Shown: positions 31,900 to 47,654 of the stretch, one piece after another
Layout: every line of letters begins with the position of its first letter
Numbering within the stretch: the first letter of the stretch is position 1
From: an uncultured SAR86 cluster bacterium
GTDB lineage: Bacteria > Pseudomonadota > Gammaproteobacteria > Magnimaribacterales > TMED112
Direction: 5' to 3'
Assembly: GCA_902526535.1 (NCBI GenBank)
Contig: CABZLG010000001.1
Span: 43,764-107,763 of the forward strand
DNA: 64,000 nucleotides
Program-made: the position numbers and the translations under genes
Notes under the pieces: model-generated
Told to the model about the DNA's origin: nothing
Seen by the model: only the letters and a program-made list of their open reading frames with translations
Database searches by the model: none

Positions 31900-33148
31900 A
31901 GCATTTTTTCGAGGTTTTGTAATTGGTTTAATATTTTGGTCTCTTTCAATAAATTGGATCTTTGATGCAATAAATTTTTATGGTGCAGGATATTTTTTAA
32001 GTTTTTTTATTACCACCCTTTTAATTCTTTACTTATCTTTTTATTTTGGCTTTTTTACTCTTTCAGTAAGATTTTTTGAAGGGAATAAATTTTTTGTGCT
32101 ACTGGTACCATCTTTAATTTTCATTCTGGAATGGATTCGTTCATGGATGATATCAGGATTTCCATGGTTAAATATTGGGATTTTTTCAGTTCCTATTAAT
32201 TTCACAGGATATCTTCCTTTAATAGGTGTATCTGGAACATCATTTATTTTTGGCTTAATAATTGTCTTAGCCCTAAAGATCAGTGCTTTAAGAATTGGAA
32301 CTATATTTTTGTTATTACTAGTTGGTTTTTTAAGTCCAAATAAGAATTTATTTCTTGATGAAAGTTCTAAACGATTAAAAATTGCAGTTGTTCAACCAGT
32401 AGAAAATAACTACAAAATTTTAAACAACCTAACTTTGCAGGCAAAAAAAGATGGAGCTGAGGTAATAATATGGCCTGAGGCCGTAAGTAGCTATCAAAAT
32501 TTTCAAGTAAGAACGGAATTTGCGGATGTTGATATTATTGGTGGTTTCTTTGTTCAACAGGATGAAAGTATTTTTACCTCAATCGTAAATACTTCAACGG
32601 ATGATAGATATGATAAAAGAAACTTAGTACCTTTTGGAGAATTTCAGCCTTTCAATAATTTACTAAAAAACTTCAGTGAATTTTTTAATATCCCTAACTC
32701 ATCACTAACAAGAGGAGAAAAATCTCAAAAAAAGGTTTTTGTTCAACAAGTTCCCTTCTCTGGTTTAATTTGTTGGGAATTATCTTTCAATGATACTTTT
32801 GTTGATAGAACTCGGAATTCAGCATTTATCATTCATATAAGTAATGACAGCTGGTATGGAAAAAATATGCCAGCACAACATCTACTTCATGCAAAAGCAC
32901 GTGCAATTGAGTCTCAAAAATGGGTTGTTAGATCTACTACAGATGGTATTTCAGAGATTATTTCACCTTTTAATCAGAGAAAATTATCAAAAAACATTCC
33001 AAAAGGTATCAGGGGTTTTAAAACAGAAACTATCTCTACTAATATGAAAAATACAACATATCTAATTTTTGGAGATTATCCATTACTCATCTTCTCATTT
33101 ATTATTATCCTATTAGCTTTAATTGATAAAAAAAGAAATGAAAAATAA
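31892..33148 (+). CDS. lnt: apolipoprotein N-acyltransferase
   Basis: TTG start; IIWPEAVSS, KRNLVPFGEFQP, LICWELSF; downstream of ybeZYX. Confidence 0.93.
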   Translation: MIKAFFRGFVIGLIFWSLSINWIFDAINFYGAGYFLSFFITTLLILYLSFYFGFFTLSVRFFEGNKFFVLLVPSLIFILEWIRSWMISGFPWLNIGIFSVPINFTGYLPLIGVSGTSFIFGLIIVLALKISALRIGTIFLLLLVGFLSPNKNLFLDESSKRLKIAVVQPVENNYKILNNLTLQAKKDGAEVIIWPEAVSSYQNFQVRTEFADVDIIGGFFVQQDESIFTSIVNTSTDDRYDKRNLVPFGEFQPFNNLLKNFSEFFNIPNSSLTRGEKSQKKVFVQQVPFSGLICWELSFNDTFVDRTRNSAFIIHISNDSWYGKNMPAQHLLHAKARAIESQKWVVRSTTDGISEIISPFNQRKLSKNIPKGIRGFKTETISTNMKNTTYLIFGDYPLLIFSFIIILLALIDKKRNEK

Positions 33149-33668
33149 TATCTTGGTTTTATTAATCATGTCCTTCCTGATGAAATCAACAGAGATTGAA
33201 ATTTCTATTACCGAGCAAAAATTATTTTTGCTTAATAACAAATCCGTTGTAAAAACCTATTTAATATCTTCTTCAAAGTACGGAGAAGGATCAAAAGTTA
33301 ACTCGTTTAAAACACCACTTGGGAAACATATTATCAAAAGAAAAATTGGAAAGGACATTCCATTAGGGGCAAGATTTATTGGAAGGAGCTTTTCAGGTGA
33401 AATTTATCCTATATATGATTCTGATCCAGTACTTGTGGAAGATGATGTGGTTCAGTCAAGGATTCTTTGGCTTGATGGATTAGAGGATGGGATCAACAAA
33501 GGTGAGGGTGTAGATTCTTATAGCAGGTATATTTACATACATGGAACACCAGAGGAATGGCTATTAGGAGTAAAAGCTTCAAAAGGCTGCATAAGAATGT
33601 CAAATGAAGATGTTATTGAGTTATTTAACCTTGTAGAGGAGGGAATACCAGTAACAATTAATAAATAG
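33123..33668 (+). CDS. L,D-transpeptidase (YkuD domain)
   Basis: YIHGTPEEWLLGVKASKGCIRMSNEDVIEL (HGT...SxGCIRM). Confidence 0.9.
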   Translation: MIKKEMKNNILVLLIMSFLMKSTEIEISITEQKLFLLNNKSVVKTYLISSSKYGEGSKVNSFKTPLGKHIIKRKIGKDIPLGARFIGRSFSGEIYPIYDSDPVLVEDDVVQSRILWLDGLEDGINKGEGVDSYSRYIYIHGTPEEWLLGVKASKGCIRMSNEDVIELFNLVEEGIPVTINK

Positions 33669-33710
33669 CTATTATTTTATAAAATAAGCATCATTTATTT
33701 ATAATAAATA

Positions 33711-33738
33711 TTGATATTACATAATAAATATGTATTAT
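33711..33738 (+). promoter_or_regulatory. putative sigma-70 promoter upstream of the candidate sRNA
   Basis: TTGATA (33711-33716), 16-bp spacer, TATTAT (33733-33738). Confidence 0.4.
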
Positions 33739-33743
33739 ATTAC

Positions 33744-33807
33744 TTAAGTCAGTCTCTCCTCTCCCCCAAAGACTGACAACTCGGGGCTTCGGCCCCAAAC
33801 TTTTTTG
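33744..33807 (+). ncRNA. candidate small RNA: stem-loop with CU-rich loop plus intrinsic terminator
   Basis: GTCAGTCT (33748-33755) / AGACTGAC (33770-33777) around CTCCTCTCCCCCAA; terminator hairpin follows; largest CDS-free gap in the window. Confidence 0.55.
33783..33806 (+). terminator. intrinsic terminator
   Basis: GGGGC-TTCG-GCCCC then AAAC and TTTTTT. Confidence 0.8.
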
Positions 33808-33810
33808 AGA

Positions 33811-33918
33811 ATGAAAGATTACTTCTACAACTTATTCACTTTTTGTAAAGATTACCCGGTCTGGACTGCAGCTTTTTTTTCAATTGGTTATTTAATCGGA
33901 GAGATTTACTTAGTCTAA
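33811..33918 (+). CDS. putative 35-aa single-TM micropeptide
   Basis: MKDYFYNLFTFCKDYPVWTAAFFSIGYLIGEIYLV*; hydrophobic, in a CDS-free gap; weak RBS. Confidence 0.35.
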   Translation: MKDYFYNLFTFCKDYPVWTAAFFSIGYLIGEIYLV

Positions 33919-33919
33919 G

Positions 33920-34021
33920 ATGGAAAAGTATTTTAATAACATAATTAATAAGTTTTCAGACTCCATAGAGTTAGCTACTCTATGTCTAATTTTTGTAGTA
34001 TTAATTGTAGGCATTTCCTAG
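33920..34021 (+). CDS. putative 33-aa single-TM micropeptide
   Basis: MEKYFNNIINKFSDSIELATLCLIFVVLIVGIS*; begins 1 nt after the preceding stop. Confidence 0.35.
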   Translation: MEKYFNNIINKFSDSIELATLCLIFVVLIVGIS

Positions 34022-34052: not shown

Positions 34053-34592
34053 ATGAAAATTAAAATCATTGCAACAATTTTTTTATATCTTTTTTCAAGC
34101 AGTGTTCTTTCCGCATGTGAAGGTCTTCTAGATGAGGAAGTAAAAATTCTAAATGAAAAAAAATATCAAAATCTTTGTGAGTATTCTGGTAAAACTATTC
34201 TTGTAGTTAATACTGCGAGCAAATGTGGATTTACTTACCAATATGAAGAGCTTGAACAACTACAAAGACGTTTTAAAAAAGATAACTTCACTGTTTTAGG
34301 GTTCCCATCAAGAAATTTTCTTTATCAAGAATTCACCGATGAAGAAGAAGTTGCAGAATTTTGTAAGTCAACTTTTGATATTACATTTCCTCTTTTCTCA
34401 ATAACAAATGTAAACGCGGTAAATACACATCCTTTCTTTGAAAAGTTATTCGAAATTACACAAAAAAGACCTACTTGGAACTTTCATAAATTTTTAATTA
34501 CTAGTAAAGGAGAGGTGAAAAGTTTTTCTCATAGGATAAATCCTTCAGATCCGCAGATAGTTGAAGCAATTCAGCAATCTATAGACTCATAA
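34053..34592 (+). CDS. glutathione peroxidase family protein with lipoprotein-type signal
   Basis: VVNTASKCGFTYQYEELEQL, NFHKFLI; N-terminus FLYLFSSSVLSAC resembles a lipobox. Confidence 0.9.
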   Translation: MKIKIIATIFLYLFSSSVLSACEGLLDEEVKILNEKKYQNLCEYSGKTILVVNTASKCGFTYQYEELEQLQRRFKKDNFTVLGFPSRNFLYQEFTDEEEVAEFCKSTFDITFPLFSITNVNAVNTHPFFEKLFEITQKRPTWNFHKFLITSKGEVKSFSHRINPSDPQIVEAIQQSIDS

Positions 34593-47051: not shown

Positions 47052-47654
47052 TTAAATATACCTACTTAAGGTTGTCATTGATTTTGCGGTGATTTTCATT
47101 AATCCTTTTACAACTGTAGGAAGCTCTTCTCCCCCATGATCTTTGGCCTCTTTGCCATGCTCTTCCTCTTCATCAATCATTTTTTTGAGAATTTCACGAC
47201 TTTTTTTATCGCTTGGAGACATTTCATCAAGATGCCCCTCTAAGTGTTTAACAACTTGTTTTTCTGTTTCTTCTATGAAGCCCAAACTCTTTTCGTCGCC
47301 AAAAAAGGCTGCTATTGATCCTAGTGTAAAAGAACCAGCATAGTAAAATGGGTCTAAGAGTGACTTTCTGCCTCCAAGTTCCTTTAATCTTTTATCACAC
47401 CACTTTAAATGTCTAAATTCTTCTTCACCTGCTTTAAGAAGATGTTTTTTTACTTTCTTCGATTTCGCGAAGAATGCTTGTCCTCTATATAGTGCTTGAG
47501 CTGCAACCTCACCTGATGCATTGACCCGCATAAGTGATATGGAGTGTTTCTTTTCATCTTCAGAAAGAGATTCATCTGGCTCCCCCCTCTCTTTATGATT
47601 CATAATTTTTAAAAAATGATTGAATTCTCCAGCAATCTTTTCTTCAAGACTCAT
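47052..47654 (-). CDS. coq7: Coq7-type demethoxyubiquinone hydroxylase
   Basis: LMRVNASGEVAAQALYRGQAFF, EEEFRHLKWCDKRLKELGGR, DEEEEHGKEA di-iron ligands; start set to MSLEEKI. Confidence 0.92.
   Translation of the reverse strand: MSLEEKIAGEFNHFLKIMNHKERGEPDESLSEDEKKHSISLMRVNASGEVAAQALYRGQAFFAKSKKVKKHLLKAGEEEFRHLKWCDKRLKELGGRKSLLDPFYYAGSFTLGSIAAFFGDEKSLGFIEETEKQVVKHLEGHLDEMSPSDKKSREILKKMIDEEEEHGKEAKDHGGEELPTVVKGLMKITAKSMTTLSRYI

Follow-up and report, generated by a model that had tools for sequence, protein, structure and literature searches.

The intergenic region 3' of an L,D-transpeptidase gene in a SAR86 genome holds two adjacent hairpins, and the question it raises is whether these belong to a small RNA acting on other transcripts, to a leader of the genes that follow, to a binding site for a protein or to the end of the transpeptidase operon. 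The window (the whole stretch of 64,000 nucleotides that was analysed) comes from the SAR86 cluster, family TMED112, and thus from a gammaproteobacterium and not from the alphaproteobacteria; the family corresponds to CHAB-I-7 in PMC11582366. An earlier note on this DNA had described a stem, a pyrimidine loop and the string GGGGC-TTCG-GCCCC-AAAC-TTTTTT, and this reading was exact by coordinates and by fold: at 33748-33777 a perfect stem of 8 bp bears a CU-rich loop of 14 nt, and GGGGC-UUCG-GCCCC with a run of U comes next. Hairpin 1 begins 80 nt 3' of the L,D-transpeptidase stop. The plausible promoter that the note had placed behind the transpeptidase gene was recovered as a promoter-like TTGATA-16-TATTAT at 33711-33738, about 9 nt 5' of stem 1, and the element is conserved. 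The features of the locus are the following.

33123..33668, plus strand: L,D-transpeptidase gene, upstream (Pfam YkuD).
33700..33738, plus strand: conserved promoter region, with an AT-rich upstream block, a -35-like TTGATA (33711-33716), a 16-nt spacer and a -10-like TATTAT (33733-33738).
33745..33806, plus strand: predicted small RNA of about 62 nt, two hairpins and a U run, from sequence, fold and the covariance-model matches R1 and R2; its 5' end is placed by the position of the promoter.
33748..33777, plus strand: hairpin 1, 8-bp stem and 14-nt loop CUCCUCUCCCCCAA, with compensatory changes in family f3.
33748-33755 and 33770-33777, plus strand: arms of stem 1, GTCAGTCT and AGACTGAC.
33756-33769, plus strand: loop of hairpin 1, 14 nt, CTCCTCTCCCCCAA.
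33756..33767, plus strand: CU-rich, conserved loop core CUCCUCUCCCCC, putative seed for target pairing; unpaired probability 0.92-1.0 in the folding ensemble.
33783..33806, plus strand: hairpin 2, intrinsic-terminator-like, made up of GGGGC (33783-33787), TTCG (33788-33791), GCCCC (33792-33796), AAAC and T6 (33801-33806); the hairpin is retained with altered sequence in f3.
33811..33918, plus strand: small ORF 1, 35 aa, hydrophobic by its sequence, probably one membrane helix (MKDYFYNLFTFCKDYPVWTAAFFSIGYLIGEIYLV); homologues in L009, L010, L014, L021 and L023.
33920..34021, plus strand: small ORF 2, 33 aa, hydrophobic, probably one membrane helix; third-codon-position bias of substitutions.
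34053..34592, plus strand: glutathione peroxidase gene (gpx), 3' of the small ORFs (Pfam GSHPx, E=1.7e-28).

Folding of the RNA predicted exactly the two hairpins that had been proposed, at -21.4 kcal/mol and z = -4.6, and 0/200 shuffles were as good. The palindrome GGGGCTTCGGCCCC is unique in the 64 kb, where 0.01 is expected at up to 2 mismatches. Besides, positions 47124-47135 of the window hold a second match to CTCTTCTCCCCC, with one mismatch to the loop. The RNA reached no family's gathering threshold when the window was searched against Rfam 15, the best weak match being S774 with 27 bits vs a cutoff of 48, and the Rfam search of 11 related loci returned tRNAs only. Membership of a known Rfam family was therefore ruled out for the window and for these loci. 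A chance palindrome was ruled out by the conservation and covariation described below.

The RNA was present in 20 of the 21 genomes of the window's genus, the exception (G018) being 60% complete. The 20 nt of the 5' arm and loop, GUCAGUCUCUCCUCUCCCCC, are invariant in 20/20 genus members within an aligned region that averages 73% column identity, and the 3' arm varies solely in ways that preserve pairing. As the stem barely varies there, a covariation test on the genus alone was uninformative. With a covariance model of promoter and hairpins the RNA was found in a second SAR86 family (f3), in all ten genera sampled and in one to three copies, with E-values down to 4e-24. Family f3 is probably D2472 (Suzuki), and a common origin of the TMED112 and D2472 families has been described (PMC11582366). 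An f3 alignment that was not fitted to a model contained double changes in 4/7 pairs of stem 1, with 99.6% of cells paired and 0/500 shuffles matching this. In an alignment of 57 sequences from both families, which was fitted to the covariance model (a fit that favours the structure), double changes were seen in 12 of the 13 pairs of the two hairpins, and 98.8% of cells pair vs 37-57% for slid partners. Both conservation and covariation among relatives, for which the earlier note had asked, are thus strong.

The stem was encountered as GUCAGUC/GACUGAC, GUCAGCA/UGCUGAC, GCUAGCA/UGCUAGC and ACCAACA/UGUUGGU with an unchanged loop core. The loop CUCCUCUCCCC is kept across genera and most other genera retain a UCYCCCC core, in many cases with UAU behind it, whereas the length of the loop and its 3' side are free to vary. 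One copy in g9 (L142) and another in g15 (L135) show more degeneracy. The TATTGAT block of the promoter is conserved in 17 of the 20 genus members, and the promoter element is the same in f3. A T-rich tail follows hairpin 2 in 12/20 sequences of the window's family (f1), in 35/39 first copies and in 8/9 second copies of f3, and is missing in the rest. Two points had escaped the earlier note: in 8/20 genus members hairpin 2 makes a poor terminator, and a short distance 3' of it conserved small ORFs begin.

Outside these two families the RNA was not encountered with confidence. A search of about 365 gammaproteobacteria outside SAR86 gave zero matches. When 84,980 species genomes were scanned with the hairpin pattern, 74 matches came up, six of which lie outside marine gammaproteobacterial bins (e.g. 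in Streptomyces and Bradyrhizobium) and are consistent with chance; the remaining matches are labelled SAR86 or belong to marine bins labelled just Gammaproteobacteria or Proteobacteria. No credible copy was found in the SAR86 families f2 and f4 by covariance-model search. The weak R2 matches L145 and L146 from that search were discarded, the two-hairpin layout being absent by eye. In the nine f2 and f4 genomes that were examined (L282-L290), gpx lies within a few bases of the L,D-transpeptidase gene, and the RNA and the small ORFs are absent. Together with the common origin of f1 and f3, the lack of a credible copy in f2 and f4 suggests that the RNA was gained once, in the ancestor of the two families; its loss in f2 and f4 is the alternative.

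The surroundings of the copies bear on the mode of action. At copy 1, f1 and f3 (e.g. L105) agree in the succession of RNA, small ORF and gpx, even with another upstream gene in f3, and in both families the small ORF starts at most a few tens of nt 3' of hairpin 2. This conserved small ORF is under coding constraint, as its substitutions fall mostly at third codon positions. Small ORF 2 is kept 3' of the RNA in f1 and f3, small ORF 1 has homologues in part of the window's genus, and the micro-proteins of both (33-35 aa) have no Pfam match. Several f3 genera carry a second, stand-alone copy with the same promoter and loop, which runs up against an exonuclease I gene in convergent orientation; a tRNA is nearby in the loci scanned, and no conserved small ORF was found behind these copies. 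A third copy, in G166 (L139 1001-1128, minus strand), is situated 5' of a seemingly decayed or truncated small ORF, and an alternative oxidase gene lies nearby downstream on the other strand.

The position of the RNA directly before the small ORF in nearly every copy-1 locus, and an order of RNA, small ORF and gpx that is kept despite the changed upstream gene, would be in line with a cis-acting 5' leader, in which the two hairpins set the expression of gpx and the small membrane proteins, either through partial termination at hairpin 2 or by shielding the start region. The lack of a good T tail at hairpin 2 in 8/20 genus members points the same way, for transcription in some members of the genus then probably continues into the small ORFs. 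However, the stand-alone paralogs retain loop, stem and promoter without a conserved downstream ORF, and gpx in f2 and f4 lacks the element and comes straight after the transpeptidase gene. Moreover, nested folding gives no stable alternative structure that joins the loop and hairpin 2. The earlier note had considered an attenuator in which the CCCC of the loop pairs with the GGGG of the terminator; this switch was not supported, since forcing the upstream pairing yields no stable alternative among nested folds, which are the forms scored, and costs about 10 kcal/mol (-10.3 vs -20.5 kcal/mol). Because the stand-alone copies keep the RNA without the ORF, a trans-acting sRNA is favoured over something that is simply a leader, and we consider the leader unlikely. 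The conserved promoter element and the stand-alone paralogs would fit a trans-encoded sRNA with its own promoter and a discrete, predicted transcript. The small RNA that the earlier note had put forward as a candidate is a real structured RNA and most likely an sRNA, as is borne out by the stand-alone paralog and the compensatory changes. If the transpeptidase operon simply ended in an intrinsic terminator next to a chance palindrome, this might explain a terminator-like hairpin 80 nt past the transpeptidase stop, but the promoter element lies in between, f3 has a different upstream gene, and the loop is invariant and the stem covaries. This reading, to which we attach next to no weight, is already refuted by the conservation data.

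Domain searches detected the Hfq domain in 0/203 and the ProQ domain in 0/203 SAR86 genomes (control genomes were positive), and the absence of both families implies that any action of the RNA would be independent of Hfq and ProQ. Within the genus, near-complements to the loop occurred at close to the control level, the RNA locus excepted, and no long conserved target was found. The total of GGGGAG occurrences before ATG was above that of the reversed-pattern control, with many scattered matches and no clear orthologous recurrence among the matches listed. When the loop was compared with the 66 start regions of the window, its complementarity was not above that of shuffled loops (25/30 shuffles were at least as good). 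A generic anti-Shine-Dalgarno action on most mRNAs was rejected for want of such an excess. As these searches revealed no conserved target and the loop is no general anti-Shine-Dalgarno sequence, the target step is the weakest link of the mechanism. A loop that is strongly conserved, yet negative in target searches, in cells where neither Hfq nor ProQ is there to assist an RNA in pairing, could also be a protein-binding site or decoy, with an RNA-binding protein that reads the C-rich loop and is sequestered by it. On the other hand, there is no candidate protein, elsewhere among bacteria C-rich loops of this kind base-pair with mRNA sites rich in G (PMC3771888), and a loop free to vary in length and on its 3' side argues against such a site. 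A decoy is in our opinion quite improbable.

The locus is thus probably the gene of a trans-acting sRNA with a C-rich loop, about 62 nt long and independent of Hfq and ProQ, that is partly read through into the small ORFs and gpx. We infer its transcription, its termination, its pairing with mRNA and the resulting repression. The promoter at 33711-33738 would belong to the sRNA itself and drive its transcription. Hairpin 1 would display a pre-formed seed, the C-rich loop, and hairpin 2 would terminate or protect the transcript. Translation of a restricted group of mRNAs would be blocked, without Hfq or ProQ, when the loop pairs with their G-rich ribosome-binding regions. For the copy in the window, incomplete termination at hairpin 2 would allow some transcripts to extend into the small membrane-protein ORFs and gpx, whereby the RNA may double as the 5' part of the small ORF/gpx mRNA.

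We read this RNA as a presumably new family of Hfq-independent C-rich-loop sRNAs that would be like sX13, RepG and NfeR1 in action and is not homologous to them. RepG is also named HPnc5490. The predicted fold has the feature of the functional class of C-rich-loop sRNAs, a structured RNA with an unpaired C-rich loop. The sX13 RNA of Xanthomonas is 115 nt long, with three C-rich stem-loops (CCCC/CCCCC, UCCCCCU) and an unstructured 5' end; it is strongly structured and Hfq-independent and pairs with GGGG motifs near start codons (PMC3771888). It is likewise a gammaproteobacterial, structured RNA with a C-rich apical loop, whereas the SAR86 RNA of about 62 nt has one C-rich loop and a terminator-like hairpin, and no homology was detected. 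HPnc5490 of Helicobacter pylori is described in PMC3771888 as having a C-rich loop with UCCCCCU that acts on a G-rich mRNA; the C-rich loop is the likeness, and the epsilonproteobacterial host and the other context are the difference. The alpha-r14 family, with NfeR1 of rhizobia, has three hairpins, each with the loop CCUCCUCCC, and this ultraconserved anti-Shine-Dalgarno loop is carried on stems of variable sequence and blocks translation starts independently of Hfq (PMC3927594, PMC10746234). The earlier note had likened the CU-rich, anti-Shine-Dalgarno-like loop to sRNAs of the alphaproteobacteria. The layout of a loop hairpin followed by a terminator-like hairpin stood, and a loop that is kept while the stems vary is a likeness in behaviour, not in homology. 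Membership did not stand, since the SAR86 RNA has one loop hairpin instead of three, its core is CUCCUCUCCCC or UCYCCCC, and its host is a gammaproteobacterium whereas those of the CCUCCUCCC loop are alphaproteobacteria; the alphaproteobacterial family was ruled out on structure and organism. The CcsR1-4 RNAs of Rhodobacter sphaeroides are processed from the 3' UTR of ccaF1 (PMC8625941). They share the linkage to a very-small-protein gene, but the SAR86 RNA lies 5' of its small ORF and has its own promoter element.

The promoter element of f3, TATTGATAATnnATTATAAnTAnnTATAATA or a closely similar form of it, was also found 5' of a small membrane-protein gene adjoining a pseudoazurin-type (Copper-bind) gene, and 5' of a similar pseudoazurin-type gene itself (L143 3972-4090, minus strand; L147 1001-1051; L297 near 1516, minus strand). 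These few loci hint at co-regulation with electron-transfer proteins, that is, at a regulon. It is conceivable, if speculative, that the locus has a dual function and was gained once in the ancestor of the two SAR86 families, combining a trans-acting C-rich-loop RNA with a co-transcribed membrane micro-protein under a promoter shared with pseudoazurin-type genes, in a redox- or copper-linked regulon that operates without Hfq or ProQ. With the RNA, metatranscriptomes can be searched for an exact target of 62 nt, and reporter tests have a defined loop to work on. SAR86 are abundant ocean bacteria, and if the preferred reading as a trans-acting sRNA is true, two of the four families of SAR86 have kept a regulatory RNA family in every genus sampled. 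This would show that base-pairing regulation persists in streamlined free-living bacteria without a match to Hfq or ProQ.
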